From a virus: 29,730 nucleotides of DNA. Location of the stretch: IMG/VR virus record IMGVR_UViG_3300018067_000095, positions 1-29,730 of that record. The stretch is one strand, 5' to 3'. Each line of letters opens with the position of its first letter. Within the stretch, counting starts at the first letter, position 1. Both the position numbers and the translations under genes were made by a program. Positions 14,901 to 29,730 of the stretch are shown piece after piece. A model generated the notes under the pieces. It did not search any database. It saw nothing but the letters and a program-made list of their open reading frames with translations, and was not told the origin of the DNA.

Positions 14901-16735
14901 CGGAAAAACCGCCATTGAAGGTGTTTGTCGCCTTCGACTACGACGGTGAGCACTTTGTGGAGGAAAAACTTCGCACGGTCCCCAAGAGCATCGTGGATAT
15001 TCCTCCGGGTGGCAGTCCGTATGAGAGCGATGACGTCACCATCCAGCGACGGCTTGACCGGTACCACCAGAACCAATCGCGTCGAGGTCTGCTGTTCACC
15101 AAGCTCCCTGACCTTCAGTTGCAGCGGGCCGGAGCGCAGTCCACGACCGGAAGTCGATCCGTCGCTAATGATTGGGGCGGCGTGGGAAATTTACCGCCAG
15201 ATCCCAAGCGCGTGGTGGTGCGTGTAGAAGCTCCAGCCACATCGGTATTATCGCTACCGGTTTACGGAGAAAATGCCCAAGCTGAACATGAGTCGGTGAT
15301 ACTCGGCACCCGTGACAAGTGGTTATGGGATGCGTGGTATGACATTGCCCCATCTTTTGAGAGCCAGTCTATATCCGGCACACCGGTTCCGAAGAAAACC
15401 TTGGCTGTAGAGTGGCCCAAGCCCGTGGACTACGATACTGCTATGGCACTCAAGGTTGAGAAGAAACCGTTGATCATCGATCTGCAGGCGGAAGACCGGG
15501 ACAAACCACACTGGATGAGCAGTGTGGACTGGTCGAAGGTGCAATCAGTTGCAGAGAAGTTCGATGAGGCCAAGCACCCACGGGATACGAAGGGCCAGTT
15601 CGCCCCGTTCTACCACGGGACATCCAACGAGATTGCCGAGAAGATTCTGGCAGAGGGCCTGAAGCCGCTCAGTGAAATGGACCGGACTTCCCCCATCGGG
15701 AAGGGTTTTGCGTCTACCAGTGAGAAGGTGGCCCTGAGCTATGCGGCGATGGCATCGGATGACTCCACCGACACCATCACGGTGATTGTGTTCAAGCCCG
15801 AAGCCAGCCAGTTCCTCAAGCCAGCCGGGAAGTTGGTGCCGGGAGGCAGGCCGGGGACATGGGGTCATGCCCGGAGCACGGAGATGTCCAGCACGGAGAC
15901 GGTCCCGCCGGAGATGATTGAGGAAGTGCGGCAGTACCGACTGGCCGATGTGCTGGAGGCGATTGGACCACGGGACGGCAAGCAGTATGCGGACTGGGAG
16001 ACGCCGCTGGAGGATCTGGACCCGGTGCGTGTTGTACGGAAAGAAGACCGTATTTATCTAGCTTTTCCTACGAAAAGTGAAGCTGTGGTAAAATGGGATG
16101 AGTTAAAACACCCGCGAGACGAGGAAGGCCAGTTCACGCGGGTGGCGATGACCAGTCAGCGGCCTGAAAGTGATCCGGGGCACCAGCCGAACAAGGACGT
16201 CTTCCGCCATATGCGGGAATTCCATGAGCAGTTGGAAGCCCTGCCGGGGGTATCGTCCGTCTCCGTGAAGCCCGGTGTCGGGGGCTGGGAGGGTGGATCG
16301 GAGTCGATGTGGCAGATTTATTACAAGGGCAACGGAGAAGCCCGGAAGTTGGTGGCCCGCACTGCCAAGCAGTTCGATCAGGATGCGGTGCTCATCCTGA
16401 ATGCGTGTAAGAAGGGGCAGGACTGCCAACCTGCCGTTGAGTTATCCTTTGACGATGCCATCTCGCCCGGTGCCCGTGAGGACGTCCACAAGCTACTCGT
16501 GGCCCATGGCATCAGCGGGTGGACGTGGCAGAAGCGGAACGGCAAGACGCTGCTCCGGATGGTCAGCGTGCCGCAGTGGGGAAGCGAAGCCAAGCAGCAT
16601 CAGCAGGCGACCGTAGCGATTAGCGAGCACTTACGAAAGAATGGGCTCAAGAACCATCGGAAGGTTCATAAAGTAGCCGTGTCAGTCATGGAACGTGAAG
16701 GGACCAACAGTTATGACGCCGTTATCAAAAGCTGA
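11903..16735 (+). CDS. giant modular protein with four ADP-ribosyltransferase-like domains
   Basis: This 1610-aa protein starts at an ATGA overlap; the frame is open back to 11516, but that part is a shadow of the protease gene. Linkers sit at residues 55-68, 331-345, 620-638, 1219-1233 and 1397-1411. Module 1 has YLHGT (His87) and VYMTTDLAEAKEYA (Tyr127), an H-Y type ADP-ribosyltransferase pattern. Module 2 has LYHVTT (His401) and VSFTSSKEDA. Module 3 is an R-S-E type: VYRG (Arg955), QSTTGS (Ser1080) and EHE (Glu1128, Glu1130), the ExE pair of arginine-specific toxins. Module 4 has FYHGTS (His1238), FASTSEKVALSYA and STET. The last 200 residues are an unknown domain. Such enzymes transfer ADP-ribose from NAD+ to a protein or nucleic acid. 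Catalytic state of modules 1, 2 and 4 is uncertain. Confidence 0.8.
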   Translation: MTLYPITIGGKSGTVVYLDRDWHPVEPEHAAIAKVIFDNGATAFFTTGEREDVEKFDPHQLRDEKGRWATGGKAGALVTDTGNTYLHGTAQGFLEDILRNGIRGSEGGKIHPKDKRNRTLALPGHVYMTTDLAEAKEYAQSTGLSDEFFLKHKETVLNPEYAKGYPRVPEYEPSYDAGTEIGGGLPCVITIELPPSVVKKLRKDRRSDILTPEPYAPGGYMMGGKKQIFSDFARSYKGDIKPEWIKSITYMTKDLATGTETWHTIDAKDYKKPGPQTPPYLPQPPGWEVSPEWQEYLKDTEKKVAADGTVIYLALKIPLHSIAGLGGITRKFDEAKHPRGTDGRFKEATEPRIFNRLSDVEQYESWGREKRWQWRKETPKSGFLLTGEPIPREQLPPVLYHVTTNAPAVESSGVLLGLQEGGGLGGGQAEGVSFTSSKEDADVILRELKRSVLIARGEVDIDVFERWAREDEQTAGLPEGTLNHAVEFSRSSWDVDAPNMGKTHYWDKDAPEGERYKEGPPAAPEEKERVRRSLLKDALNAYLIARDTVSREQNAPSIKNPILFGRQEHLAKLDPEGIQILEVESAQIPLEALVTTGSDTFLHEVRAYSDVPYRRRKKVAYDPNQPRGKEGTPEGGQFVETGRSGVPTPDPVLAVQAKAGIAAVERLLPEAVRTADFDPGSAGVTWETVDQPTQDSVYHAYIKAESDNMLAGNEDMDYLDAEAWADKNWHTLSDQDKSNVMNDYAIMGKLPARRQLEKKEPENWVTGVETGTHSEQNYARTHEVALRLAELRTDELRKERGLMKSGAPVEYTVVQQPPNPEFEGGPSEDSFEVRDATGRVVGFASSKAGAHAFGTSWARQQSTDIPSDQLIHQVWEAWKQKSSERLGLSLQLAAARELGGVHRMTPDEVQEAEDSAVQELGNNGMATLQAYVRAQWEVTQFVMQKAGEDKVAVYRGLMLPGDQVRATTHVVTDKLGGLPKDPPTNIKRVEQRVAPELDTPEKPPLKVFVAFDYDGEHFVEEKLRTVPKSIVDIPPGGSPYESDDVTIQRRLDRYHQNQSRRGLLFTKLPDLQLQRAGAQSTTGSRSVANDWGGVGNLPPDPKRVVVRVEAPATSVLSLPVYGENAQAEHESVILGTRDKWLWDAWYDIAPSFESQSISGTPVPKKTLAVEWPKPVDYDTAMALKVEKKPLIIDLQAEDRDKPHWMSSVDWSKVQSVAEKFDEAKHPRDTKGQFAPFYHGTSNEIAEKILAEGLKPLSEMDRTSPIGKGFASTSEKVALSYAAMASDDSTDTITVIVFKPEASQFLKPAGKLVPGGRPGTWGHARSTEMSSTETVPPEMIEEVRQYRLADVLEAIGPRDGKQYADWETPLEDLDPVRVVRKEDRIYLAFPTKSEAVVKWDELKHPRDEEGQFTRVAMTSQRPESDPGHQPNKDVFRHMREFHEQLEALPGVSSVSVKPGVGGWEGGSESMWQIYYKGNGEARKLVARTAKQFDQDAVLILNACKKGQDCQPAVELSFDDAISPGAREDVHKLLVAHGISGWTWQKRNGKTLLRMVSVPQWGSEAKQHQQATVAISEHLRKNGLKNHRKVHKVAVSVMEREGTNSYDAVIKS
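12858..12871 (+). repeat. 14-bp quasi-palindrome copy 4
   Basis: TGCACTCAATTGCA, encoding HSIA, 21 bases before the linker codons at 12893. It is the exact reverse complement of the intergenic copy at 8231-8244. Confidence 0.6.
15540..15553 (+). repeat. 14-bp quasi-palindrome copy 5
   Basis: TGCAATCAGTTGCA, main form. It encodes QSVA and ends three bases before the linker codons at 15557, at the boundary between two ADP-ribosyltransferase modules. Confidence 0.7.
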
Positions 16736-16901
16736 ACAGGCTCTCGTGCAACAGGCCCTCCAAGGGTTACGAGAGACGCTGGAGCAGGAACGAGCCTCCG
16801 GCGAACCGCCGGATACGTCGTGGACGGACGATCTACCGGATGATCCGTTACCGGAAGAGGAAGACGAGACGTCTGTGACGTTCCTGACGAAACCGAAGTA
16901 G
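16713..16901 (+). CDS. small acidic protein
   Basis: This 62-aa protein starts at an ATG preceded by AAGGGA and overlaps the end of the giant gene. It has a helical first half (SKAEQALVQQALQGLRETL) and an acidic second half (DDLPDDPLPEEEDETSV). A GTG at 16695 is an alternative start. It could be an adaptor or a masking protein for the preceding or following enzyme; nothing in its sequence proves this. Confidence 0.55.
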   Translation: MTPLSKAEQALVQQALQGLRETLEQERASGEPPDTSWTDDLPDDPLPEEEDETSVTFLTKPK

Positions 16902-16911
16902 CGAGAGAGCT

Positions 16912-18684
16912 ATGACCCCCAAAGACATGGCGCGGTTGGTGGCGGAGATTCGGGACATTCTGGATCAGAAGTCCCCGCCGTATCACTCGGTGCTCAAGTG
17001 GAACCGCAACCAGCCCCGTGGCCCGAAGGGCTCTCCTACTGGGGGCCGGTGGGTAGCGGGGGTGAGTGCCGGAGGGGGCACGGCGTCTTCGACGTTCAAG
17101 CCGCCCGAATATGGCTTCGGCAGCACGGAGGATCGGCGGAGGGCACAGGCCAATCAAGCGTCCTATGCCGCCATCATGAACGCCCCCACCGGGACCGGGT
17201 TCCACAACCGTCCCCGTGGCGTGGGCATTCCCGAGCCCAAGGCGGAGCCTACCGGTGATCCCAAGATTCTGAGTGCCTTGAAAGAGGGCACGGTCACGGA
17301 CAGCCGTCCGCTGGGCGGTGGCGGAACCAATGCGTCGGTTATCGTGACGATGGACGACGGCACCGAAGCCGTCTACAAGCCGGAACGTGGTGAACGGTGG
17401 GGGGAAGGGTTCGCCAACCACGAAATCACCGATTACATCACGAACAAAGATTTTTCACTGGCCGCACGGGAAGCCTTCGCCTTCGAAGTCGATACGGCAT
17501 TGAGTCTGGGGATCGTGCCCGAGACGGTGCTACGGGAACAGGTCGATGAAACCCACATCAGCGTCGATACCTCTGGAGACGGGAGCGGCGGAGGCGGGTA
17601 CGACGAAGACTATGCGCGGGAAGAGTACGAGAAATACAAAGAAAAGATGATCGATGACGACTCGATCATGGATGAAGTCGGTCAGCGGTTCGAAGCCAAG
17701 TTTGACGAAGCCAAGAACGACCACGTCAGTGATCTGGAGAGTCGCCGCGAAGAACTGCAGGAAATCTGGGATGAACTGGTCAAGGACTACCCCGAAGATA
17801 CCACGTACGGTGCTCAGTCAGAACTGCGGAAGCATCCCGTGCTCCCGATGGGATCGGTGGAAGGGTTTGAGCGGCGAGAGAAGAAACTTCTCGATGAAGT
17901 GAATCCGATTGCTCTGCTCGATGAAGCCAAGGTGGATGTCTCCGCCACGATGAGTGACGAGGAAGAAGATCGTGTCCGAGCGGCGATGAGGGGGTATCTG
18001 GACGAAGGGTACCGGCGTCTGGGCGAAGTCGATGAGCATGAGGCGAAAGAACACCTCGACCGGGATGACTGGTATCAGGAGCACGAAAACACGGAGGCCG
18101 AGATTCGGGACAGCGTTTACGGTGACAAAGTGCAGAGCTTTACCGCATGGCGCAAGAGTCAGGGCTATCGTAGCGATGGCAGCTACGGCGGAGGCGGCGG
18201 GGGGGATCAGAACCCCGATGCTCCTCACCCGAATGGCGGATCGTTTCAGAATTTCCGGAGCAATGCGGAAGGTTGGGGCAACATGAGTGCTGAAGACGGA
18301 GCCAAACTGGCGGTGCTCGACTACGTCATTGGCACGATGGATCGACACGGGGCCAATCTCATGTTCGAAAACGACCGGCCCGTGGCGATTGACAACGGCT
18401 ACAGCATGCCCGGTGGCATGGACACCGAGGACGATTTCCAGTTCCGGTCAGAGGGCGTCAACGAGTGGTACCGCAGCAGCAAGAGCCGGAACGTGCCATC
18501 GGAGCTACGTGCTCAACTCCATGAGGCTATGGAGCAGACCGATTGGGATGCGCTGGTGGCCCGTCATCCGGGGATGAGTGCGGAGGAGAAAGAAGCGTTT
18601 CTCGGTCGGGTGAACAACCTGACGATTGCCCTGCAGACCGAAGAGGGCTTGCGGGAATTGTGGCGTAAACAGCGGCGAATGTAG
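16912..18684 (+). CDS. PI3/4-kinase-like protein kinase with linker and long insertion
   Basis: This 590-aa protein carries the linker KWNRNQPRGPKGSPTGGRW at residues 29-47. The N-lobe has a glycine-rich loop LGGGGTNAS (from residue 134) and VYKPERGER with Lys156 as the likely ATP-binding lysine. The catalytic loop is GTMDRHGANLM (Asp477, Asn482) and the metal-binding segment AIDNGYSMP has Asp494. The DRHxxN plus D-N/F-G order is that of the PI3/4-kinase and HipA-like fold. Between the lobes lies an insertion of roughly 200 residues, charged and partly coiled-coil (DEDYAREEYEKYKEK), ending in a glycine-rich stretch. It probably phosphorylates a protein or small molecule of the host; an AMPylating or pseudokinase role cannot be excluded. 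Confidence 0.75.
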   Translation: MTPKDMARLVAEIRDILDQKSPPYHSVLKWNRNQPRGPKGSPTGGRWVAGVSAGGGTASSTFKPPEYGFGSTEDRRRAQANQASYAAIMNAPTGTGFHNRPRGVGIPEPKAEPTGDPKILSALKEGTVTDSRPLGGGGTNASVIVTMDDGTEAVYKPERGERWGEGFANHEITDYITNKDFSLAAREAFAFEVDTALSLGIVPETVLREQVDETHISVDTSGDGSGGGGYDEDYAREEYEKYKEKMIDDDSIMDEVGQRFEAKFDEAKNDHVSDLESRREELQEIWDELVKDYPEDTTYGAQSELRKHPVLPMGSVEGFERREKKLLDEVNPIALLDEAKVDVSATMSDEEEDRVRAAMRGYLDEGYRRLGEVDEHEAKEHLDRDDWYQEHENTEAEIRDSVYGDKVQSFTAWRKSQGYRSDGSYGGGGGGDQNPDAPHPNGGSFQNFRSNAEGWGNMSAEDGAKLAVLDYVIGTMDRHGANLMFENDRPVAIDNGYSMPGGMDTEDDFQFRSEGVNEWYRSSKSRNVPSELRAQLHEAMEQTDWDALVARHPGMSAEEKEAFLGRVNNLTIALQTEEGLRELWRKQRRM

Positions 18685-18687
18685 GGT

Positions 18688-18720
18688 ATTTGACAAATTG
18701 TCCTCACATAGTGATACACT
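18688..18720 (+). promoter_or_regulatory. sigma70-like promoter P3
   Basis: TTGACA at 18690-18695 and TACACT at 18715-18720 are 19 bases apart. The -35 lies in the shared ATTTGACAAA string and the -10 in TACACTGGT, as in P2. It lies in the middle of the island and starts the second half. Confidence 0.65.
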
Positions 18721-18737
18721 GGTGGCTGGAGGATTCC

Positions 18738-18953
18738 ATGCACGTTGAGTTGTGGTCGAATACCGGGGGGAAAAGTCGGGTGATTGCCATCATCCGGGCG
18801 GATGGCGTCGAAGAAAAGGAACCGGTGCCACCGCGCATCCGGGCAGACGTCGAGAAAGCGCGAGCGCGAGAGTCAGGGGACGAGGCGTTTCTGAAGTCGT
18901 TACCGGTGGAGTTTTCAGGCACCTACTACCGGGCGACTCTCATCAAGGACTGA
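18738..18953 (+). CDS. small hypothetical protein
   Basis: This 71-aa protein begins at an ATG with GGAGG six bases upstream and P3 just before it. A longer frame from 18690 overlaps the promoter and is rejected. It begins MHVELWSNTGGKSRVIAII and ends in GTYYRATLIKD, a beta-rich pattern. I do not recognise it. It may be an immunity or chaperone partner for the ADP-ribosyltransferase that follows, by position only. Confidence 0.6.
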   Translation: MHVELWSNTGGKSRVIAIIRADGVEEKEPVPPRIRADVEKARARESGDEAFLKSLPVEFSGTYYRATLIKD

Positions 18954-18957
18954 CCTG

Positions 18958-19845
18958 TTGCAATCAGTTGCACCGTCGTTCGTGCGGGTGTTGAAGTACT
19001 CGCCCACGCAGGCCCGAGCCCCCAGAGGCTCGTCTGAGGGCGGACAGTTCACAGGTGATCCCACGCACGCACGGCGAGCGGATGTCGAACAGATGGAGGG
19101 CGCACTGGCCGACAGTGCCGCCACCATAGCCCCCGGCATCACGCCCCGGTCCATGGGGCAACGAGCCGCCGTCAAAGATCATATCCAGCGAGAGTTGACG
19201 AAGTCCTTGTACGCGGACCCGGCGTTTACGGGTATGTCACTGGAGGCGGTGTCCAACTGGGTCAAGGGCAAAATTGATCTGTGGGCGGACACGTCCGGGG
19301 ACAGCGACATCGACGCAGGCGTCATGCAGTTGGCGGTCCAAGCTGAATTTGGGCTGACGGATGCGGCCACGGACCACATTACCAGTGCCATCAAGCAAAT
19401 GCACGGCACGGGGATCAGGTTACCGGAGCGAGAAGGCGCACGGCTCCGGGCCTTTGTGCGAGCCGAGTACGACGCCACGCAGGCGTGGTTCAAGGAACGG
19501 GGCATCACCCACGTCACGGTCATCCGGGGCATGGACGATGATGAAGACAACAAGCTGTTAGGCTATGGCTACGAGACGGTGACGATGCAACCGGCATCCT
19601 CATGGACATCGGACGTGGGGACCGCTTTTGCGTTTACGACGGACAAGGCCAACCCCAAGATCCTCACGACGCGAGTCCCGGTGTCTCAGGTGCTGAGCAC
19701 CTGTGTGACCGGTCGTGGGTGTCTGACGGAGCGGGAAGTGGTGCTGCTGGGTAAGCCCCAGCGTGCCCGAGTGTTTGGCGTGAGCGGGGATACGTTCTAT
19801 GTCGATGGACCGGAAGTGAAAAAGGTTCTGAGGACGCTGGAATGA
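18958..19845 (+). CDS. R-S-E type ADP-ribosyltransferase with linker
   Basis: This 295-aa protein uses a TTG start with AAGGA upstream. The first codons (MQSVAP) are encoded by a copy of the 14-bp repeat. The linker KYSPTQARAPRGSSEGGQF is at residues 13-31. The catalytic pattern is complete: TVIRGM with Arg190, the SWTS strand at 215-218, and CLTEREVVLLG with the ExE pair Glu258 and Glu260. This matches arginine-specific ADP-ribosyltransferase toxins and is paralogous to module 3 of the giant protein. It would modify arginine residues of host proteins using NAD+, for example to redirect host transcription as T4 Alt does. That comparison is by analogy only. Confidence 0.82.
   Translation: MQSVAPSFVRVLKYSPTQARAPRGSSEGGQFTGDPTHARRADVEQMEGALADSAATIAPGITPRSMGQRAAVKDHIQRELTKSLYADPAFTGMSLEAVSNWVKGKIDLWADTSGDSDIDAGVMQLAVQAEFGLTDAATDHITSAIKQMHGTGIRLPEREGARLRAFVRAEYDATQAWFKERGITHVTVIRGMDDDEDNKLLGYGYETVTMQPASSWTSDVGTAFAFTTDKANPKILTTRVPVSQVLSTCVTGRGCLTEREVVLLGKPQRARVFGVSGDTFYVDGPEVKKVLRTLE
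18959..18972 (+). repeat. 14-bp quasi-palindrome copy 6
   Basis: TGCAATCAGTTGCA, main form, covering the TTG start region of the ADP-ribosyltransferase and 21 bases before its linker codons. A site here could also affect translation or transcription of that gene. Confidence 0.7.
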
Positions 19846-20519
19846 ACATCGACGCCAACCTCACGAACGCCGACTGGCCGAAGCGAACCCCGGACAAGTT
19901 TGCGGATTTGGTCCAGAAGTATGATCCCGATCAGGCGCGGGACAAGGCAGGCCGCTTCACCAAGGAACAGATGGCGTTCCTTGAGGCCCACGGAGTGCAG
20001 CGACGGGGGACGCCCGCCGCCGAGATGAAAGCCCTGCCTCCACCCAAGACGATGGCGGAGGCTGAAGACCGTATTCGGCACGAACCGAACGAGCATGCCT
20101 TCCTGTTCAAGGACGGGCAAGCGGTTAGGGTACTGGGCAGTGACGATAGTCACCATATCTATCTGGAAGGTATGACCGATGCGGATTTGAAGGATGCGGT
20201 CCTGACCCACAACCATCCTTCGGGCTTTGGTTTGAGCAACAAGGACGGGGTGTCCGCCGCCGCCCGTAATATGCTGGAGATGCGAGCCGTAACGGCCACC
20301 GGCACGCACGTTATCCGGCGCACGGGCACCGACTGGCCGTCTCACTTCGCGGAAGCCATCTCCGATCAGCACGGGGAGTTGATGACCGAACTGGGCATGC
20401 GCCTGCATGACCACGACATCACCGTGGAGGAGGCCAACACCCTGCATCACACCATGATGTACCGGCGGCTCCAGCAGCGGGTGGGTGGCTTCGTCTATTC
20501 CTTTGAACCCAAAGCATGA
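19842..20519 (+). CDS. JAMM/RadC-like metalloprotease with linker
   Basis: This 225-aa protein starts at an ATGA overlap. The linker KYDPDQARDKAGRFTKEQ begins at residue 26. A JAMM (MPN+) zinc site is visible: THNHPSGFGLSNKD supplies His123, His125, Ser132 and Asp135, and Glu84 in NEHAFLF is the likely general base. This is the arrangement of RadC-like and JAB deubiquitinase-like isopeptidases. The HPSG form is close to RadC. In a capsid-delivered set it could remove ubiquitin-like or other isopeptide conjugates, as used in bacterial antiphage conjugation systems. A role in head maturation is an alternative. Confidence 0.8.
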   Translation: MNIDANLTNADWPKRTPDKFADLVQKYDPDQARDKAGRFTKEQMAFLEAHGVQRRGTPAAEMKALPPPKTMAEAEDRIRHEPNEHAFLFKDGQAVRVLGSDDSHHIYLEGMTDADLKDAVLTHNHPSGFGLSNKDGVSAAARNMLEMRAVTATGTHVIRRTGTDWPSHFAEAISDQHGELMTELGMRLHDHDITVEEANTLHHTMMYRRLQQRVGGFVYSFEPKA

Positions 20520-23500
20520 CCCCTGAACTGCTCATTGACGACAGCGAATTCCTGACACCGGTCTACGTGTCGGTGCGGAAGTTCGAAGAGGTTCGCAAGT
20601 TTCAAGAAGCCCAGCATCGACGGGACCGCCGGGGCCGCTTCACCGAGACAGCCTCCGTCACGGTCGGGGACCGTCAGGTGGAGGTGGTCAAGCCCGAGCG
20701 AGCCATCCGCGACGGGGACAAGCGCGTGCCGCTGGATGTGATTGGGTTCGATGAGGAATTCCAGCGGGAGGAAGGCTTCTACATCGACGTGGGCGGGAGG
20801 GGTGGAATCGGCGTCCGCTATGAACGCTTCGGGCAGTTCCTAGCAGAGAACGACTCCATCGAAGCCGCTGAAGTGTACGTCCACGAAGACGGGAAGGTCG
20901 GCTTCATCAACGGACGGCACCGCTATGCGTGGCTCCGTGATCAGGGCATCACGTCGATCCCCGTGGCGATGTCCCCGGAGTCCGTGGCCCATGCCAAGAA
21001 ACATGGCTACCTGTCAGCCGTCAAGAAGGCATGGGACGAAAGCCAGCATCCCCGTGATACGGAGGGGAAGTTCACGGGGAGTGGGATTCTCCCCAACCTT
21101 CGGGTTAACGAGGGAGAAGATACACTCACCTCTGATGTGGGACACATTACGTTGCGGCGTACCAAAAGCGGCAAGGGGTTCATGACGGTGGGTCATGTCC
21201 AAGTGTGGGACCAATACCGTCGTCAGGGGTGGGGAGCCCGTCTGTATGCTGAAGCCGCCGCGTATGCGGCGTCCCATGGGTATGAGGGGATTGCTCAGAG
21301 TCAGGTTGTTTCTGACGATGCCGCAGCCCTGTGGCAACGCATGGCGGAGATGCGCGGGTTCCGTGTCGAAGAACGTCCGCTTCGTGGCGGCGGCGGAAGA
21401 ACCACTCATGTTCTCTTTCCTCCGAAGGTTAGAAAGTGGGACGAGAGCCAACATCCACGGGATGCCGAAGGCCAGTTCACGACCTTCTACCACGGCACGC
21501 TGCAGGAACAGGTCGATTCGATCAAAGCCCACGGACTGCAGACCAATCGGTCAGGGTTAGCATGGCCGGGACTGAGCCAACCGGGGACCATCTATCTGGG
21601 TAAAACCCAAGAAGCGGCCATGCAGTGGGCGGAGTCCACGACGCTCCGGCTGGAGTGGAAGTTTGATAACCCCACAGCCGTCGTCTTGGAAGTGCGTATC
21701 CCAGACGAAGTGCTGGAGAAGTCCCAGCGCACGGCTGAACCAGAAGGCAATCTGCGAGTCTTCCAAGACATTCCCCCCGAGTGGATTGTGGGGGTGACGG
21801 TTGGGCGGAGCCATGATCAAATCCTTGGCGTGACGAGAGCCCGGATGCGGCGGGAGGAAGCCACACACATTGTTCCTCCCTTCGTGACCAAAGCGGAGAC
21901 GTTTTATATCGGGCTGGTGGTGGAAGGGGGCGTGCAATCAGTTGCCAAACAGGAGCACGCCTACGGCAACACCCAGATCCAGATTACGCCCACCAGTTCT
22001 GCCGCCATCTGGTTGAACATGGGGCGAGACGCTATCCGTGATGACCATCTGCAGGGCACGGGTAAGGACGTAGACCCGAACCACATCACTGTCCGGTATG
22101 GCCTGCTGAATGACGATCTGGATAGCCTGCGAATCTTCATAGCCAATCAGGCCCCCTTCACGGCGTACGTAGGGGAGATAGAACTGTTCCCCGCCAGCGA
22201 GCACAGTGAGTGGGCGGTGCCTGTCGTGGCCCGTATCGTGGCCCCAGAGCTACACGCCATCGAAGCTGAGATTGGCAAGCATGCAGACTTCAAGGAGAAG
22301 AGCTTCCCGGTTTACAAACCGCACTGCACACTGGCGTACTGTAAACCGGAGGAAGCCGAGCAGTACCAGAAGCTGTTCGTCCCCGGCGCGGACCATGGCT
22401 TCTTTGTCGTGCAGGGCATCACCATCAGTCATCAATCCGGCGTCTTGGAAACGATTCCTTTCGGCTTGGTCCAGAAGTGGAATCCCAGCCAGCCACGAGA
22501 TGCCCATGGACGATTTACTGATCTGGGGTTGCATGGCGACGTGGTTACTGTGCTGCATGGCACGACTCGCCAGAATGCGGAAGCGATCCTTGCGGGCGGA
22601 TTCAAAGCGGGCGATCCCGCTCGCGTTGCGGCACAGGTTGAACACGAATACGGACTACCGTCGAACAGTATCCTGAAGCATGTGGCGTTTGAATTCGCCA
22701 GAGGCCGGAAGGATCTGGGCAACGTCCACTTCACCACGGATGAATCGGTCGCAGACCAGTACTCGGTTCCCGAAGTGCTGCAGGATGCGCTGACGTCCGC
22801 GCATATGCTGCTCTACCCCACACCAGAGGACGTGCCGTTCACCAAGGAGATGCACGCCGCACGCAAAGCATGGATTGACCGGGAGGCCAGACGGTTGACC
22901 GAGCCTGCCTTGTTGGCGGTGACGGTGCCCTTTGAGACGGTGGGACGCCATGGCTTCGGCAAGCAGTTCACGCTGGAGGAATTCAAGGCTCTGTTGAAGC
23001 GGTTCCCCAAGTCCGAAGAAGACATCTTCAACAACATCACCATCCCGATTGAGGCTCTGCACGGCGCACGTATTGAGCGACGAAAGTGGGATGCAAGTCA
23101 GCATCCCCGTGCCCCCAAGGGCTCATCTCGTGGCGGCGAGTTTACGGACACCTTGCATGGGCCGAAGGATGCGCTGGACTCTCTGTTGAACGGGGAGAAG
23201 GACGTCAGCATCGACCGGAATGATGTGCGACGGTTCTTGGAACTAGCGGACGAGCACCCTCAGGTGTTTGATGAGACTGGGAAAGAAATTATTCCCGATC
23301 TGACCGATCTGCAAGTCGAGGGGATGGAAATCTTCGGCGGCAACGGGTTGGGCATCGAGCGGGATGACATGCCGCAGATCCCCCCAGAGCATCGGCAGCG
23401 GTTTCTGGAGTATGCGGAACGGCAGGGGGTCACGATTGTGGCGGAGACGGTGGACCCCCTGACGCTCAAGCCCACCCAGAACGCTATTTCAGCCCGTCGT

Positions 23501-24958
23501 GTGGCGGAAAAGCTCCGCAAGTACGAGAAAGGGGACCGGAAGTTCCCCAACGTGTTGGTGTCCAGTCAGAACCGGATTCTCGATGGCCACCACCATTGGG
23601 GCATGATGGCGGCATTCGCGTTGGATATTCCAGACGCGAAGATGCCCATCTTCCGCATGCACGTCAGCACCAAGGAAGCCCTGTCCTTGATGCACGCCTA
23701 CATGAAGATCCATGGACTCAAACGGGCCACGTTGTCCGGAGCCAAGCTGGCGTTGGACCCTGCCAGTGGACGATATGTCACACCGTTCGTGTCCTTCGAC
23801 AAGCAGGGGGATGAGCAACTGCGAATGATCGCCAGCTTGAATTCCAGCCGTCTGGCCACATGGGGCTTCACGGCGGAGGCCGAAGTGCTGGGCATGGCCC
23901 GCTACCGGCTGACGGCGGTGCTCGATGGACGCACCAGCAAGTTCTGTCGTCTGATGGACGGCAAGGTGTTCGAAGTCTCCGATGCCCGGAGAAAGGTCAT
24001 CGAAGCGTTGAATGTCCAAGACCCCGAAGACCTGAAGGTGGTGCAGCCATGGCCCAAGCAGACCAAAGCCGCCATGGCCATGTATGCCGAGATGAGTACG
24101 GAGGCGTTCGTGGAACGGGGCCTGCACATTCCCCCCTACCATCCACACTGTCGCACGCTGCTCCGTCATGTGCCATCGAGCATCGGAGCCCCGATGGAGA
24201 TAACACCCACGGTGCCCGAAGGCGCACAGGTCTTCCAACAGGTGACGCAAGCGGACCTGAAGGAACTGGGGATCGATGCCACGCCTGAGCAAGTCGCGGA
24301 GTGGAATGAACACATTGGCATGACCCCGGTGGAGTTGCTGTCCAAGTTCTCTGGACTGCCACCCCGTGAGGTGATGACCAAGCCGCTGGGCGTGGGAGCC
24401 CAGCCCATCTCCTTCGATGAGGCCGGGAACATCGGGGTCACCGTCCGGGGCGAGTCCCCGAAGGGTGTCGAATTCAAGCTGGGTGCCCTGCTCGATCCCT
24501 TTACGGGGATCTACTACCTGACACAGGCGGACCTGTTGAAGGGCACGCCCAGTGCGGAACTGGCGTTCTTGAAGCAGATGTTCTCAGCGTTCATCGAGAT
24601 GGGGCAGAAGTCCTCCGCCACGTCGCTGGCACTGGGGGTGGCCGGGAATGCCCCGTACTACGCCAAGATGGGATTCCTGCCGGATGAACTGGAGTGGGAC
24701 AGCCTGCGGACCTATGCGCTGGAAGGGGATACGATGATCCCCACGGTGCTGGCGTCACTGGACCCCGAGGATGCCCTGCTGGTCAGGCACCTCCTGCAGG
24801 ACAAGTCCGTAGGTGCGATGCAGGCGCTGGTGGAGCTACCATTAAGCTATCAGGGCAAGACCATCGGGGAATGGCTCTTCGGAGAGGCCAGCGGGACATG
24901 GGCACTGGACCTGACCGATGACGTGATGGTGCAGCAAGCCTTGGCGTATTTGTCATGA
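20516..24958 (+). CDS. giant modular MuF-type protein with ParB-like, GNAT, ADP-ribosyltransferase and 2H phosphoesterase domains
   Basis: This 1480-aa protein starts at an ATGA overlap. Linkers begin at residues 28, 172, 307, 654 and 857. In order: a ParB/Srx-like domain (NGRHRYAWL, His135); a GNAT acetyltransferase (YRRQGWGARLY from about 234); an ADP-ribosyltransferase-like domain (FYHGT, His326; TIYLGKTQEAA); a 2H phosphoesterase (HIT at 523-525, HCT at 603-605); a second ADP-ribosyltransferase-like domain (LHGTT, His681; VHFTTDE); a ParB-like domain (ILDGHHHWG, from Asp1023); a MuF/SPP1 gp7-like head domain (LDGRTSKFCRLMDGKVF, Cys1144, and PPYHPHCRTLL, His1209, Cys1212); and a C-terminal region ending near YYAKMGFLP that looks like another GNAT. 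The MuF domain ties the whole chain to the phage head. Domain order is unusual, since MuF is normally N-terminal. Confidence 0.82.
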   Translation: MTPELLIDDSEFLTPVYVSVRKFEEVRKFQEAQHRRDRRGRFTETASVTVGDRQVEVVKPERAIRDGDKRVPLDVIGFDEEFQREEGFYIDVGGRGGIGVRYERFGQFLAENDSIEAAEVYVHEDGKVGFINGRHRYAWLRDQGITSIPVAMSPESVAHAKKHGYLSAVKKAWDESQHPRDTEGKFTGSGILPNLRVNEGEDTLTSDVGHITLRRTKSGKGFMTVGHVQVWDQYRRQGWGARLYAEAAAYAASHGYEGIAQSQVVSDDAAALWQRMAEMRGFRVEERPLRGGGGRTTHVLFPPKVRKWDESQHPRDAEGQFTTFYHGTLQEQVDSIKAHGLQTNRSGLAWPGLSQPGTIYLGKTQEAAMQWAESTTLRLEWKFDNPTAVVLEVRIPDEVLEKSQRTAEPEGNLRVFQDIPPEWIVGVTVGRSHDQILGVTRARMRREEATHIVPPFVTKAETFYIGLVVEGGVQSVAKQEHAYGNTQIQITPTSSAAIWLNMGRDAIRDDHLQGTGKDVDPNHITVRYGLLNDDLDSLRIFIANQAPFTAYVGEIELFPASEHSEWAVPVVARIVAPELHAIEAEIGKHADFKEKSFPVYKPHCTLAYCKPEEAEQYQKLFVPGADHGFFVVQGITISHQSGVLETIPFGLVQKWNPSQPRDAHGRFTDLGLHGDVVTVLHGTTRQNAEAILAGGFKAGDPARVAAQVEHEYGLPSNSILKHVAFEFARGRKDLGNVHFTTDESVADQYSVPEVLQDALTSAHMLLYPTPEDVPFTKEMHAARKAWIDREARRLTEPALLAVTVPFETVGRHGFGKQFTLEEFKALLKRFPKSEEDIFNNITIPIEALHGARIERRKWDASQHPRAPKGSSRGGEFTDTLHGPKDALDSLLNGEKDVSIDRNDVRRFLELADEHPQVFDETGKEIIPDLTDLQVEGMEIFGGNGLGIERDDMPQIPPEHRQRFLEYAERQGVTIVAETVDPLTLKPTQNAISARRVAEKLRKYEKGDRKFPNVLVSSQNRILDGHHHWGMMAAFALDIPDAKMPIFRMHVSTKEALSLMHAYMKIHGLKRATLSGAKLALDPASGRYVTPFVSFDKQGDEQLRMIASLNSSRLATWGFTAEAEVLGMARYRLTAVLDGRTSKFCRLMDGKVFEVSDARRKVIEALNVQDPEDLKVVQPWPKQTKAAMAMYAEMSTEAFVERGLHIPPYHPHCRTLLRHVPSSIGAPMEITPTVPEGAQVFQQVTQADLKELGIDATPEQVAEWNEHIGMTPVELLSKFSGLPPREVMTKPLGVGAQPISFDEAGNIGVTVRGESPKGVEFKLGALLDPFTGIYYLTQADLLKGTPSAELAFLKQMFSAFIEMGQKSSATSLALGVAGNAPYYAKMGFLPDELEWDSLRTYALEGDTMIPTVLASLDPEDALLVRHLLQDKSVGAMQALVELPLSYQGKTIGEWLFGEASGTWALDLTDDVMVQQALAYLS
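21933..21946 (+). repeat. 14-bp quasi-palindrome copy 7
   Basis: TGCAATCAGTTGCC, one mismatch, encoding QSVA. It lies exactly between the first ADP-ribosyltransferase-like domain and the 2H phosphoesterase of the giant protein, a boundary that has no HPRD linker. Confidence 0.65.
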
Positions 24959-25134
24959 AGATTATCCCCAAGCCGTTGACGATCAAGCCTCGTCCGAACA
25001 CTCCGGCGATGGTCGCTGTGGTGTCGGCATCGACAGCCCCCCGGTCCCAACAGGTGGGGAAGGCGTATCAGCAGCTAGTCACGTCACAAGACGTGCATCC
25101 TGACCGCGCCAAGCGACTATTAGGATTGCCCTAG
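24955..25134 (+). CDS. 59-aa basic protein
   Basis: This small gene starts at an ATGA overlap with the giant MuF gene and ends before a short intergenic region. It starts MKIIPKPLTIKPRPNTP, then a helical segment with SQQVGKAYQQLV and a basic end (DRAKRLLGLP). It has no recognisable domain. Translational coupling is the main support. Confidence 0.55.
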   Translation: MKIIPKPLTIKPRPNTPAMVAVVSASTAPRSQQVGKAYQQLVTSQDVHPDRAKRLLGLP

Positions 25135-25141
25135 AAAATAG

Positions 25142-25171
25142 TTGTTGCTTTCTCGACGGCTCCTGTAAAAT
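25142..25171 (+). promoter_or_regulatory. possible promoter P4
   Basis: TTGTTG at 25142-25147 and TAAAAT at 25166-25171 are 18 bases apart in the only gap of this region. The predicted start point lies near 25178, so the 14-bp repeat at 25188-25201 would be an operator-like site inside the leader. Confidence 0.45.
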
Positions 25172-25187
25172 ACACGCCGGGTCTTCG

Positions 25188-25201
25188 TGCAATCAGTTGC
25201 A
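25188..25201 (+). repeat. 14-bp quasi-palindrome copy 8
   Basis: TGCAATCAGTTGCA, main form, in the leader between possible promoter P4 and the next gene. It is not part of the assigned coding sequence, which argues for a DNA- or RNA-level role. Confidence 0.7.
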
Positions 25202-25215
25202 CGGCTGGAGCACAC

Positions 25216-25689
25216 ATGCCACTGCATATGACGTCCTTGGTGTCTCGCCATAAATTACTGCACCCGGATGAGCAATCTCCCGCCCCAGCAACGCCGCTCG
25301 ACTACGAACGAGTCCTCAAATACAATCCCAACCACGGTCCTGACGGTCGATTCGCTTCCGGGGGTGGAAACCCGGCGCTCAGCACGAGCAATGTGCTGGG
25401 AGCCTTGAGGAAGAAAAACCCTACGGCGGTAGCCGCAGCGGAAGCGCGGTATACGGGCAAGGTGCCTGCTCTGGACTATGGCTTCTTCCGGGGAGCCCCG
25501 CAACCCCGTGACCCGCGATTTCACAAGGGGCCGGAAGCCACACTCGATCCCAATTTCCACCACGGGGTAGGGGATGCGGAACTGGCCGGGTCCACTCCGT
25601 ACAAGCATGCGGTCAATCCCGCCAAGATTTCGATCAACAATGCCTCACGTCGGCAGCACGCCCGTTCCGTACTCGGACACTTCACATAA
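25216..25689 (+). CDS. linker-bearing protein of unknown function
   Basis: This 157-aa protein has GGAG about ten bases before its ATG. It carries a short linker form KYNPNHGPDGRF at residues 35-46, followed by ASGGG. The rest is rich in H, P, G and R (FFRGAPQPRDPRFHKGPE, ATLDPNFHHGVGD) and looks poorly structured. I see no catalytic motif. The linker places it in the island set, perhaps as a packaged basic protein. Confidence 0.65.
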   Translation: MPLHMTSLVSRHKLLHPDEQSPAPATPLDYERVLKYNPNHGPDGRFASGGGNPALSTSNVLGALRKKNPTAVAAAEARYTGKVPALDYGFFRGAPQPRDPRFHKGPEATLDPNFHHGVGDAELAGSTPYKHAVNPAKISINNASRRQHARSVLGHFT

Positions 25690-25697
25690 GGTGGCCC

Positions 25698-25985
25698 ATG
25701 CCTCTTACCACAGGCTTCACGAGTCGGCACGCCATCAAGGGTGAAGGCCATATCCATTCGGAGAAGTGGCACCGCTGTATCGAGCACGTCAAGGCCAAAG
25801 GTGGCGGCTACGATCCCTACGCCGTCTGCACCTTCAGCATCGGCTACAACGAGTCGGTCAACCCGGAGCACCAGACGCCGGGACCGCACTCGTCACGAGA
25901 CACCCGCCGGTTCAAGCGACGGAAAGAACGCCAAGAGGCCGAAAAGAAAGACGTTTCGTTCGCTGCCATTCTGAAATCCAAGTAG
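25698..25985 (+). CDS. small conserved phage protein
   Basis: This 95-aa protein has AAGGTGG upstream of its ATG. The segment SEKWHRCIEHVKAKGGGYDP then YAVCTFSIGYNES resembles a motif I have seen in many phage head-region hypothetical proteins (KWHRCV.HVK...NPYAVC). A basic helical tail (RFKRRKERQEAEKKD) follows. Its role is unknown. It lies between two linker-bearing genes and is likely cotranscribed. Confidence 0.68.
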   Translation: MPLTTGFTSRHAIKGEGHIHSEKWHRCIEHVKAKGGGYDPYAVCTFSIGYNESVNPEHQTPGPHSSRDTRRFKRRKERQEAEKKDVSFAAILKSK

Positions 25986-25987
25986 CT

Positions 25988-26974
25988 ATGCCTATCGAAG
26001 GACTCCGGACGACGTGTGAAGGTCCGCCTAAGCAGGGCCATCTGGAGAAACGGAAGCGCAAGCATACGTACGTCGTGACGGTGAAATTCAATAAGTGTCA
26101 CGATAGTTCCAGCGGGGAATTTTCCAGCGCGTGCGGGACGGATAAGAAACCGGGGAGTAAACTATCGCCTGCTCAACGTGAAATGCAGCGAGAGCTAGCA
26201 AGACAGGCGAAGAAACCTGTTCACAAGGTGCATTCAGCCGAAGAAGCCGTGGCGCTGGTCCTTCGGGGAGAGAACGTCGAGATTCAGACTACCAAAGCCG
26301 TACATACGGTGCTGAAGAAGCTGGGAGAAATGGCCCTCAGAGCCAAGAGCCTGAACAAGAAGGCCCCCAGCTTTGATCCCTGTACCATCACGGTGAAGGG
26401 CGTCAGCTTGTTCTGTTCCGAGAAACTGAAGACCGCAGAATTTCCGCATGGTCTGCCCCGCATCGAGATGCCGCAGTTCAAGTCCAAGAATCCTGTACCG
26501 GGAAGTGAGGCGGACAAGCTCCCACGGGATGAGAACGGGGAGGTTGATGCCTCTCAGGCGTTTCTCCGTCATCTGAAAGAGTTGGATGTTGAGACAAACC
26601 CCAACGGAAAGATGCTGGCTCGGAAGCTGAAGGCCAGCCAAGCCGAAATGGAAGGGGCCAAAGTCGCCGGGATGATGCTCGACAAGAGCCGTGATCCCAA
26701 GAAACAGAAGATTTGGGTGTCCAAGGATGGCTATGTCATCGACGGACACCATACGTGGGCGGCAGCAGTGGGCCGGGATGCCGAAGATGGCAATCTGGAC
26801 AACGATATGGAGATGGACGTGGTCGTTGTAGACCTTCCCATGTCCGAGATATACCACCTGTCCAAGAAGTGGACGGAGACGTTTGGGTTACCTGCCGCAG
26901 GCGTGAAGAAGTTCGATCCATGGGTCCGCAGTTGGATGCGTGGTCGGCGGTCGTCAACGTCGGTGTCGTTGTAG
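25988..26974 (+). CDS. ParB/Srx-like protein with degenerate linker
   Basis: This 328-aa protein starts at the ATG at 25988, two bases after the previous stop; a longer frame from 25766 overlaps that gene. KFNKCHDSSSGEFSS at residues 33-47 has the spacing of the island linker with the HPRD core replaced by CHDS. A helical, lysine-rich middle follows. Near the C-terminus KIWVSKDGYVIDGHHTWAAAV (given here as IDGHHTW, Asp252 to Trp257) matches the ParB-like/Srx nuclease-fold signature and resembles ILDGHHHWG of the giant MuF protein. It may be a nuclease or nucleotide-using enzyme. Its final residues are basic and serine-rich. Confidence 0.7.
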   Translation: MPIEGLRTTCEGPPKQGHLEKRKRKHTYVVTVKFNKCHDSSSGEFSSACGTDKKPGSKLSPAQREMQRELARQAKKPVHKVHSAEEAVALVLRGENVEIQTTKAVHTVLKKLGEMALRAKSLNKKAPSFDPCTITVKGVSLFCSEKLKTAEFPHGLPRIEMPQFKSKNPVPGSEADKLPRDENGEVDASQAFLRHLKELDVETNPNGKMLARKLKASQAEMEGAKVAGMMLDKSRDPKKQKIWVSKDGYVIDGHHTWAAAVGRDAEDGNLDNDMEMDVVVVDLPMSEIYHLSKKWTETFGLPAAGVKKFDPWVRSWMRGRRSSTSVSL

Positions 26975-26988
26975 AGGAGTGTGTGTCT

Positions 26989-27777
26989 ATGCCAAGCAGA
27001 CAGGTTACGATTCAAGGGGTGATGACGTGGGAAGAGCCCACGACGCCACAGCCCCCCTTGCATCCCGGCTGGCCAACTGTGCCGGGGTGGCCCGGTGGAT
27101 CGCTGCCGGGTGGTGAAGGTGGGTGGGGCGGTCCTCCGATTGCGGGATGGCCCAGTGTGCCGGGAAATTGGCCGTCGCTCCCCGGACCTATCAGACCGCC
27201 ACAGCCGCCGTTGCATCCGGGTTGGCCCACGGTACCGGGATGGCCGGGTGGTTCATTGCCGGGTGGGGGTGGTGGATGGGGTGGCCCACCCGTCGCCGGA
27301 TGGCCTGATGTGCCGGGGAACTGGCCGTCATTGCCACGGCCACCGATTCAGCCGCCACAGCCTCCGACCGTGCCGGGATGGCCGACTGTGCCGGGATGGC
27401 CGGGTGGTTCATTGACGGGTGGCGAAGGGGGATGGGGTGGTCCTCCGGTCGCTGGCTGGCCGAGTGTGCCGGGTAACTGGCCGAGCCTGCCCGGAACCAG
27501 ACCGCCGACAGGACCGGGAGGCGGTTGGCCGGGTGGTGGAGAGCCCCCGCAAGCACCGGGGTTCCAGCCCATCGGACAGCCGGGGCCGATCTACGGCTAT
27601 CAGTGGTACTGGTCACCCACGCTGGGATGGCTGTTGGGCATCCCGCCGCAGGGTGGCGAGACGCCGTCGCCGCCGGAGGGTGGGATTCCGCCCGGACCCG
27701 GTGGTGAACTGCCGCCTGCGACCACGAAGCCGGGTGGAGACAAGCCCCCGATTTCGCCGGAACCGTCGAAGAAGTAA
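26989..27777 (+). CDS. tryptophan/proline/glycine repeat protein
   Basis: This 262-aa protein starts at an ATG preceded by GAGGAG; the open frame back to 26713 is a shadow of the ParB-like gene. After MPSRQVTIQGVMTWEE there are three near-identical repeats of 51, 52 and 50 residues built from PGWPTVPGWPGGSL, GGWGGPPVAGWP and VPGNWPSLP. A short unique part with YGYQWYWSPTLGWLLGIPP and a proline-rich tail ending EPSKK close it. Proline-rich proteins of this plan, with an aromatic W-Y-W segment, occur in head regions of other phages. Function is unknown; a flexible capsid-surface or fibre-like role is possible. Confidence 0.72.
   Translation: MPSRQVTIQGVMTWEEPTTPQPPLHPGWPTVPGWPGGSLPGGEGGWGGPPIAGWPSVPGNWPSLPGPIRPPQPPLHPGWPTVPGWPGGSLPGGGGGWGGPPVAGWPDVPGNWPSLPRPPIQPPQPPTVPGWPTVPGWPGGSLTGGEGGWGGPPVAGWPSVPGNWPSLPGTRPPTGPGGGWPGGGEPPQAPGFQPIGQPGPIYGYQWYWSPTLGWLLGIPPQGGETPSPPEGGIPPGPGGELPPATTKPGGDKPPISPEPSKK
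27049..27507 (+). repeat. three tandem ~150-bp coding repeats
   Basis: Units run 27049-27201, 27202-27357 and 27358-27507, encoding 51, 52 and 50 residues. The protein repeats are nearly identical while many third codon positions differ, so they are conserved as protein. Confidence 0.85.
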
Positions 27778-27792
27778 GTAGGGGAGGGGCAT

Positions 27793-28389
27793 ATGCCGAC
27801 ACCAACACACAAGAAGCTCGTAATCAAGAGCGAGGACGCGCAACTCGTGTTTGGTGAGGTATATGCCCCCAACCGCCCGGACGCACAGGGCGAGTACATG
27901 ACGGCGGACGATATTCAGAAAATGGCCCATGAATTTATCCGGTCGGGTAAAATGGGCTCTATTGATTTGATGCACGGCAACAAGCTCGTGACGGGGGCCA
28001 GTGTGGTTGAGTCGTTCGTGGCCGATGAGACGGACACACGATTCCTACCGGGCTCGTGGGTGATCGGGGTCCACATCCCCGATGCCCAACTGTGGGGGGC
28101 GATCAAGAAGGGTGAAATCAACGGCTTCTCCATGGAGGCGCTGGTCACGCGCCACGACATGGATGTGGAAGTCGAGATTCCACCTATTGTGACCGGGCTC
28201 ACCAGTAAGTGGGAAGAGCATCAGCACAAGTTCTTCGTGGCCTACGATGAAAAAGGCCAGTTCAAGGGCGGCGTGACCGATATGGTCAATGGACACCAGC
28301 ATCAGATCGTCGCGGGCACCCATACACAGGATGCGGCAGGCCATCGGCACCGCTTCTCCAGCGTCGATAATGTGCGGATACTAGGGTGA
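27793..28389 (+). CDS. XkdF-type phage head maturation serine protease (S78-like)
   Basis: This 198-aa protein has GGGGAGGGG before its ATG. Residues 1-125 match the XkdF family: LVFGEVYAPNRPDAQGEYMT, a DLMHGN motif with His61, WVIGVHIPDAQLWGAI, and INGFSMEALV with Ser113. His61 and Ser113 are the likely catalytic pair. It would cleave scaffold and head proteins during prohead maturation. The C-terminus has three H-x-H clusters (EHQHKF, NGHQHQI, GHRHRF), a probable metal-binding tail seen in some relatives. YDEKGQFKGG in that tail resembles the island linker. Position after portal and MuF matches PBSX and SPP1 head modules. The last eight codons are duplicated, recoded, after the following endonuclease. 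Confidence 0.87.
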   Translation: MPTPTHKKLVIKSEDAQLVFGEVYAPNRPDAQGEYMTADDIQKMAHEFIRSGKMGSIDLMHGNKLVTGASVVESFVADETDTRFLPGSWVIGVHIPDAQLWGAIKKGEINGFSMEALVTRHDMDVEVEIPPIVTGLTSKWEEHQHKFFVAYDEKGQFKGGVTDMVNGHQHQIVAGTHTQDAAGHRHRFSSVDNVRILG

Positions 28390-28856
28390 AAGAAATTCCA
28401 CTTACGCAAGGCCAAGTGACCTTGGTCGATGACGCTGATTTTGACTGGTTGAATCAGTGGAAGTGGTATGCCATATATCAGCGTAACACCCAGAGTTTTT
28501 ACGCTGTTCGTGGGGTAAGGGTTGCCGGGAAAGTTGTTCGCATTTGGATGGCCCGGTTGATTCTGGGGTTAGATCAGCTTGAGATAACAGCCGATCATCA
28601 AAATGGAAACACTCTTGATAACCAGCGGTTGAATCTGCGAGCAGCTACGAATCAGCAGAACGTAACCAATTCAAAGATGCGATGGAATAATCAGGTGGGC
28701 TTGAAGGGTGTGTCACCTTGTAGACGGCGATTCAAGGCGCAAATTACCGTCAATGGAAAGAAGTTGTATCTGGGGTTGTTTTTGACTCCGGAGCTTGCGG
28801 CGGAAGCCTATCGCAAAAAGGCTCTTGAAGTTCATGGTGAGTTTGCAAGGCTTTGA
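28386..28856 (+). CDS. HNH-AP2 homing endonuclease, free-standing
   Basis: This 156-aa protein begins at a GTG that overlaps the protease stop (GGGTGA). The HNH core ITADHQNGNTLDNQRLNLR is followed by AATNQQNVTN. The C-terminal KGVSPCRRRFKAQITVNGKK then LYLGLFLTPELAAEAY and HGEFARL is an AP2 DNA-binding domain. This combination is typical of mobile phage endonucleases that cut one site and spread into it by repair. The gene is much more A+T-rich than its neighbours and lies between the protease gene and the next head gene. It is followed by a recoded copy of the protease C-terminus. Confidence 0.92.
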   Translation: MKEIPLTQGQVTLVDDADFDWLNQWKWYAIYQRNTQSFYAVRGVRVAGKVVRIWMARLILGLDQLEITADHQNGNTLDNQRLNLRAATNQQNVTNSKMRWNNQVGLKGVSPCRRRFKAQITVNGKKLYLGLFLTPELAAEAYRKKALEVHGEFARL

Positions 28857-28860
28857 ATTG

Positions 28861-28887
28861 GTAGACAATGTCAGAATTTTAGGGTAA
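28861..28887 (+). repeat. recoded duplicate of the protease gene 3' end
   Basis: These 27 bases encode VDNVRILG and a stop, exactly as 28363-28389 does at the end of the protease gene. The two copies differ at eight bases, all synonymous, and use different stops (TAA, TGA). They flank the homing endonuclease. Confidence 0.85.
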
Positions 28888-28891
28888 CGTC

Positions 28892-29730
28892 ATGGCGACT
28901 ATTCGGGCGAAGCTGAAGCAGTTGCGGAACGCCGACGTCCGGTACATCTCACTGGTGGACCGAGCCGCTACGCGCATCCCGTTCCGAGTGCTGAAACGCG
29001 ACAAGGAGAGCAAGATGGGCATTGACCTGACGCAGGTATTCAAGTCGGATGACACGGCGGTGAAGCCCTCCGTCTCGGCATTGGTGGTCTTTGCCCAGAA
29101 GGATGAGGCAGTTGGCACTCAAGTGCAGGACGCCATCAAGGCTCATGGCTTCAAGACCGACGTGGTTCAGAAGTCCGATGAAGGCGAGACGGTGGTGTAC
29201 ACCCAAGGCCCCCAGCAGAAGAACACCTCCATCGTGCGCCTGAGCGATCAGACGCTCGTGTCGGTGTCGGGTCTGAAGATTCCCGAAGGCTGGGTGGGCG
29301 AGATGGTGGAAGAGCACGGCTTCTTCCCCGATCTGCACATGGCCACCGAGCAGATGCACCAGCGGATGCAGGACATCGTGGCCAAGTCGGACACGCCGCA
29401 AGCCGATGCCGAAGCCGCCCTGACCAGCTACGCCGAGTACCTGAATCAGATGGTCGTTCTGCCCACCGCGTGCTTCAAGCTGGATGAGGCCATCGTCGGT
29501 ATCGTCAAGAAGTGCTCGTGCGAAGACGAGGACGAGGTCGAGGACGACGACAAGGACGAAGTCGAGAAAGACGACAAGGCCACGGTGAAGAAGTCGTCGG
29601 ACGAGCACACCGGGCACCAGAAGACCAACCCCGCCGCTGAAGCCGTCAAGGAAGAGACAGCGGCTGACAAGAAGAAGCGGGTCAAGAGCCACGCGCCCGC
29701 CGAGATGGCTCCCAAAGACGAAGACGACGA
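28892..29730 (+). CDS. acidic head-associated protein, scaffold-like, cut by the window end
   Basis: The visible part is 279 residues and stays open to the window end. It starts at an ATG four bases after the recoded TAA, with AGGG as a weak ribosome-binding site. The N-terminus LRNADVRYISLVDRAATRIP resembles the conserved VRFISLVDRGANRIPFR segment of phage proteins encoded with XkdF proteases. The middle is a soluble alpha/beta region with a helical stretch (DLHMATEQMHQRMQDIVAK) and a CSCED pair. The end is a highly charged D/E/K tail, as in scaffold or internal head proteins. It could be a scaffold or a decoration protein; the major capsid gene is expected further downstream. Confidence 0.72.
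   Translation, partial: MATIRAKLKQLRNADVRYISLVDRAATRIPFRVLKRDKESKMGIDLTQVFKSDDTAVKPSVSALVVFAQKDEAVGTQVQDAIKAHGFKTDVVQKSDEGETVVYTQGPQQKNTSIVRLSDQTLVSVSGLKIPEGWVGEMVEEHGFFPDLHMATEQMHQRMQDIVAKSDTPQADAEAALTSYAEYLNQMVVLPTACFKLDEAIVGIVKKCSCEDEDEVEDDDKDEVEKDDKATVKKSSDEHTGHQKTNPAAEAVKEETAADKKKRVKSHAPAEMAPKDEDD

Follow-up and report, generated by a model that had tools for sequence, protein, structure and literature searches.

Gene layout at the right end of the window

The window analysed here is a metagenomic virus fragment of 29.7 kb (29,730 nucleotides; IMGVR_UViG_3300018067_000095). Its right end carries a protease gene, an endonuclease gene and the next structural-region gene, all on the + strand. 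The first of these (27793-28389) encodes an XkdF-type prohead protease of 198 aa (PF14550, E=4.8e-25; phrog_15223, E=1.5e-68), which is probably essential, judging from its family (XkdF, PF14550). The gene is completed by its last eight codons and stop (28363-28389, VDNVRILG and TGA, GTCGATAATGTGCGGATACTAGGGTGA), and this stop precedes a gene for an HNH-AP2 homing endonuclease (28386-28856, 156 aa) whose GTG start overlaps it in the string GGGTGA. This overlap suggests that translation of the endonuclease is coupled to that of the protease. After the endonuclease stop, ATTG (28857-28860) leads into a second copy of the protease end (28861-28887, VDNVRILG and TAA, GTAGACAATGTCAGAATTTTAGGGTAA), which lies in a different frame from the endonuclease and is not translated as protease. 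The next gene (28892-29730, phrog_27672) runs off the window. AGGG at 28881-28884, inside the second copy and 7 bases 5' of the ATG at 28892, reads as its likely Shine-Dalgarno sequence. The GC content of the endonuclease gene is 0.47, compared with 0.57 and 0.61 for its neighbours. Just 5' of the protease, a gene at 26992-27777 contains imperfect tandem Pro/Gly/Trp-rich repeats, and in L002 this position is occupied by a different Pro/Gly-rich repeat gene.

The endonuclease matched phrog_99 (E=1.5e-31) and, by profile comparison, I-HmuI (1u3e, E=5.6e-4). Its HNH_3 motif (28593-28664, residues 70-93) scored under the family cut-off of PF13392 (E=3.8e-4), whereas the endonucleases of L056 and L173, described below, scored over it. 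The AP2-type DNA-binding domain at the C-terminus (28713-28838, residues 110-151) matched PF00847 weakly (E=0.079), and the family profile matched plant AP2 structures, the best being 7wq5 (E=6.4e-15). An AlphaFold2 model had a mean pLDDT of 91; its PDB matches were led by AP2 structures (1gcc, 50 columns, rmsd 0.9), with I-HmuI among the next. The enzyme thus classifies as an HNH homing endonuclease with an AP2 domain, for which cleavage and homing are predicted, and by its model it is intact, with no sign of decay. No intron family was found in 27700-29200; the protease is complete and its stop precedes the endonuclease, and the reading as a group I intron-encoded endonuclease was dropped.

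The protease C-terminus is encoded twice

The initial annotation had described two copies of VDNVRILG with a stop, at 28363-28389 and 28861-28887, that differ at eight of 27 bases without changing the peptide. Both positions and both translations were confirmed. The eight differences fall at copy positions 3, 6, 12, 13, 15, 18, 19 and 26, and all are synonymous. The further claim that chance is excluded as the source of the duplicate end held up in shuffle, flank-pair and substitution controls. In 3000 Markov-shuffled versions of the 611 downstream bases, the 9-symbol end was matched at no more than 6/9. The peptide match between the upstream and downstream flanks scored 47, whereas 1500 mismatched flank pairs drawn from other HNH loci reached at most 44. 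When eight random substitutions were simulated 200,000 times, an all-synonymous outcome occurred in none.

The inserted element had also been described as carrying a recoded end that keeps the protease whole while removing the cut site. The synonymous nature of this end and the integrity of the protease stood, but the idea that loss of a cut site was the purpose of the changes was not supported as stated, as 8/27 differences are typical of the phage group, where pairwise differences over these 27 bases range from 2 to 12 with a median of 7. Since this level of divergence is normal, the upstream end can be a natural diverged ortholog; it is most readily taken as the ordinary end of an ortholog in a diverged phage, and special recoding would be unneeded. 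Escape from cleavage is then plausible as a by-product of that divergence. The replacement end may also guard the element against deletion by recombination between the repeats.

The downstream copy matches the empty site

To find which copy is native, a point that the initial annotation had left unclear, we compared both with endonuclease-free relatives, located by a degenerate protease-end pattern and a protease-family scan. In L070, L046 and L047 (the same contigs as L007-L009) the protease ends in GTAGACAATGTCCGAATTTTAGGGTAA, followed by CGTC and then ATGGCGAC. The downstream copy in the window agrees with L070 at 26/27 bases, the spacer at 4/4 (CGTC) and the start of the next gene at 8/8. 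The normal spacing of this copy to the next start, noted in the initial annotation, is therefore that of the empty site. The L070 empty site joins directly at GTAGAC, which places ATTG at the right-hand border of the insert. The upstream copy has 7/27 differences from L070 and 5/27 from L043. Stop usage follows the same division: close endonuclease-free relatives all use TAA or TAG, whereas the window and L056, which bear the endonuclease, use TGA.

Since the downstream copy matches L070, and since the TGA/start overlap is common to the endonuclease-bearing phages, the upstream copy appears to be a replacement that goes with the endonuclease, while the downstream copy is, on this sequence comparison, the native end. 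The native assignment rests mainly on the L070 group, together with position and the shared stop/start overlap; against relatives other than L070, both copies are about equally distant. The presence of close relatives without the endonuclease bears out that it was inserted into the protease gene at the 3' end of the coding sequence. An attempt to set the left insert boundary from the 23 bases left of two serine codons, which are identical to L070, was uninformative, as L053 shares most of them.

A 27-base target-site duplication at insertion, followed by drift, would also leave direct-orientation copies flanking the insert exactly, as they do here. However, it is the translated copy that has 7 differences from L070 and the untranslated copy that has 1; drift would be expected to affect the untranslated copy no less than the translated one, and to include nonsynonymous changes. 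HNH homing enzymes are not known to make such target-site duplications, and we regard this origin as extremely improbable.

The two flanks have different nearest relatives. The left flank is closest to L043 and the right flank to L070; identity to L070 is 63/70 bases on the right and 46/60 on the left. Over the first 45 codons of the next gene L070 is again nearest, with codon-window identities of 0.84, 0.89 and 0.95. The older genome backbone may be represented either by the L070-like right flank or by the L043-like left flank. This asymmetry could arise by plain mosaic recombination of two diverged phages, in which overlapping protease ends were joined at an endonuclease that was a passenger or a breakpoint marker, and nuclease genes are known markers of exchange boundaries in phages (PMC10448857). 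The breakpoint would, however, have to fall exactly at the endonuclease, and in two phages the endonuclease start is adapted to the stop of the replacement end; we judge such an origin improbable. A metagenomic assembly chimera of two strains would equally give a fragment with flanks resembling different relatives. An assembler would have had no long exact match between the two ends at which to join them, and no repeat linking them was reported; the endonuclease junction recurs in L056, which is an independent contig, and the stop/start overlap and spacing are functional on both sides. A chimera is accordingly very improbable.

A related endonuclease at the same place in L056

Among 77 protease relatives, one (L056) has an endonuclease at the same place. 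Its endonuclease is the nearest relative of that in the window (56% identity) and sits at the same position in a homologous phage, and the TGA of its protease overlaps the endonuclease ATG, as at the window junction. The insertion adjoins HRHRFSSVDN, the segment in which the protease is most conserved. L056 thus has the left junction of the unit, but its displaced native end is not recognisable downstream, where the endonuclease frame runs straight to TAACGTCATGG. We considered whether a decayed native end precedes the TAA there; the length of VAEQGNKV and stop fits, but the 24 bases show no likeness beyond chance. The displaced end may have been lost from L056; alternatively, the duplication in the window could be a scar left by one transfer event.

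In the latter case the endonuclease would normally follow the protease stop cleanly, as it does in L056, and the duplication would not be part of the travelling unit. Transfer into an L070-like phage would have been repaired on the left by recombination inside the protease, and, before resection had extended to the stop, on the right by end joining or microhomology, leaving the last 27 bases of the recipient behind. The shared junction of L056, with no recognisable second copy, fits this sequence of events, as do the L043-like left and L070-like right flanks. An untranslated displaced end could equally be lost in L056, however, and a similar duplication, at a gene start, is present in L173. 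The displaced ends of the mitochondrial precedent discussed below are, moreover, constant (PMC3630166). We consider a one-off scar rather unlikely.

A mirror-image duplication in L173

We surveyed 87 HNH-family loci with flanks, the window included, and 10 more. The peptide match between flanks beat all 1500 mismatched pairs at 2/87 loci, the window (47) and L173 (51). The next-scoring loci were rejected on inspection, L198 and L131 as out of frame or non-coding and L139 as a low-complexity match. No convincing duplicated ends were found in about 95 other HNH loci, and a scan of bacterial genomes for the endonuclease gave one match, without duplication.

In L173 (IMGVR_UViG_3300017655_000246, 2471-3367), an HNH-AP2 endonuclease lies between two differently coded gene starts rather than ends. 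The upstream copy, MEAISGTRRAM, is in frame with the endonuclease, the downstream gene starts MNAISGTRRSMRE, and the two have many synonymous differences. The corresponding gene start in endonuclease-free L201 matches the upstream copy at 22/24 and the downstream copy at 17/24. Since the L201 start matches it better, the upstream copy would be the stranded native start. By this comparison with one relative, L201, divergence is again found in the copy attached to the body of the gene, and the endonuclease separates the native terminus from that gene, the mirror form of the arrangement in the window.

HNH relatives of the window endonuclease occur in several unrelated phages (L016, L024, L028 and L042) directly 5' of genes that look helicase-type; L042 has LRPYQPLMRDHVIDTPRGALFVPMGMGKS after the endonuclease stop, and the position before helicase-type genes is a possible recurrent insertion niche. 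Within the window, a further HNH endonuclease gene (651-1142, phrog_374) is inserted between a small conserved gene (251-) and the gene for DNA polymerase A. The stop of this endonuclease gene overlaps the polymerase start (GTGTTAA), and GGAGG occurs in the final endonuclease codons. Several relatives lack this gene and have only a short gap or overlap instead, and other insertions occupy this position in L206 and L208.

Proposed insertion of the endonuclease with a replacement protease end

The explanation of the whole locus that we favour, and consider probable, is that the endonuclease was inserted as a unit with a replacement protease end. The anatomy of the locus, the empty site, the identity of the native and replacement copies and the second phage with the same stop/start junction are observed; from them we infer the cleavage site, homing, protection from self-cutting and stability. 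The unit would consist of the replacement last eight codons and TGA plus the endonuclease ORF, placed at or within a few bases of protease codon 191. The replacement codons would restore the full protease, their stop overlapping the endonuclease start, and the native last eight codons and stop would be pushed downstream, noncoding for protease and still the native leader of the next gene. Because the displaced end keeps AGGG 7 bases from the ATG, insertion at this point would preserve a plausible ribosome-binding site that, judging from the spacing, insertion right after the stop would move. Homing would begin with cleavage of an empty allele by the enzyme, at the native junction near HRHRFSSVDN. 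Repair, with the protease body serving as left homology arm and the native end followed by the next gene as right arm, would bring in the replacement end together with the endonuclease. The replacement end, probably from a diverged relative, would neither rebuild the target nor form a long perfect repeat that allows deletion of the insert.

Several results point to insertion as such a unit. The empty-site relatives match the downstream copy, its CGTC spacer and the right flank better than the left; the sole endonuclease-bearing protease relative has the closest homolog and the same TGA/ATG overlap; and TGA is used by both bearers, TAA or TAG by the close relatives without the endonuclease. The insert adjoins the most conserved protease stretch, its HNH-AP2 enzyme is intact by model, and its GC content is lower than that of its neighbours. 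A mirror duplication exists in the same HNH family, with the stranded copy like L201, and an identical anatomy is established in fungal mitochondria (PMC3630166). Against it count that the complete unit with both boundaries is seen once, since L056 has no recognisable displaced end, that about 95 other HNH loci have no duplicated ends, and that the native status of the downstream copy depends mainly on the L070 group.

Relation to known mobile elements

The closest parallel is with mobile ORFs (mORFs) of fungal mitochondria that carry a C-terminus, known from atp6 of Allomyces macrogynus and from atp6, atp9, cox2 and nad3 of Glomus sp. (PMC3630166). In these, as in the window, a foreign in-phase C-terminus, an endonuclease ORF and a displaced native C-terminus follow one another in that order; the native copy matches endonuclease-free relatives and the inserted copy differs mostly synonymously (PMC3630166). 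In contrast, the mitochondrial enzymes are LAGLIDADG or GIY-YIG and the inserted ends are 51-238 bases long (PMC3630166), whereas the present case involves an HNH-AP2 enzyme in a tailed phage, 27 bases and, in L173, a mirror-image 5' form. Since the enzyme families differ, the likeness is in working and not in descent.

Among phage elements, the Seg and Mob endonucleases of T4 are likewise encoded by free-standing genes between conserved genes and spread by double-strand-break repair with flank co-conversion (intronless homing). In contrast to the present case, they are intergenic and their cut sites lie hundreds to thousands of bases away, and the available portion of that account describes no replacement gene end (PMC2988022). 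The IPA-HNH genes of ICP1-like phages resemble the window endonuclease in having HNH followed by AP2 and in adjoining essential genes at exchange boundaries, but a replacement gene end is not reported in the available portion of the source (PMC10448857). The synthetic home-and-rescue drive HomeR also places a nuclease cassette in a 3' coding end with a re-coded end that restores the gene; its re-coded end has 22 or 27 residues and resists gene conversion (PMC7968924). HomeR is engineered, Cas9-based and works in the fly (PMC7968924), whereas the present arrangement is natural and spans 8 residues, with putative protection. No earlier phage example of such a layout was found in the open-licence literature, an absence that is weak evidence; the layout is known from fungal mitochondria.

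We tentatively suggest, as a possibility short of an even chance, that some phage HNH-AP2 genes are terminus-swapping elements that insert in coding ends (3' here, 5' in L173) and bring a synonymous replacement terminus. If true, terminus-swapping would be a natural, splicing-free form of home-and-rescue in which the translation signals of both neighbours are preserved, linking intronless homing in phages with mitochondrial mobile ORFs and providing a natural parallel of the synthetic drive. Free-standing endonuclease genes lie mostly between genes, having no intron or intein to hide in; the window and L173 indicate that landing inside coding sequence would be possible given a working replacement for the severed terminus. 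The enzyme is predicted to cleave the native end but to leave the replacement end uncut. A practical warning is that gene ends beside endonucleases may be foreign.

Recurrent motifs in the head region

Elsewhere in the window (10356-26000), and also in L067 and L079, several genes contain many recurrences of a motif of the form [KW/F]DE[AS][KQ]HPRDxxGQFT or (F/Y)NPNHGPDGRF. Motifs of this HPRDxxGQFT/NPNHGPDGRF type stand within and between large head-region ORFs, as if at module borders, and are possible protease processing tags.
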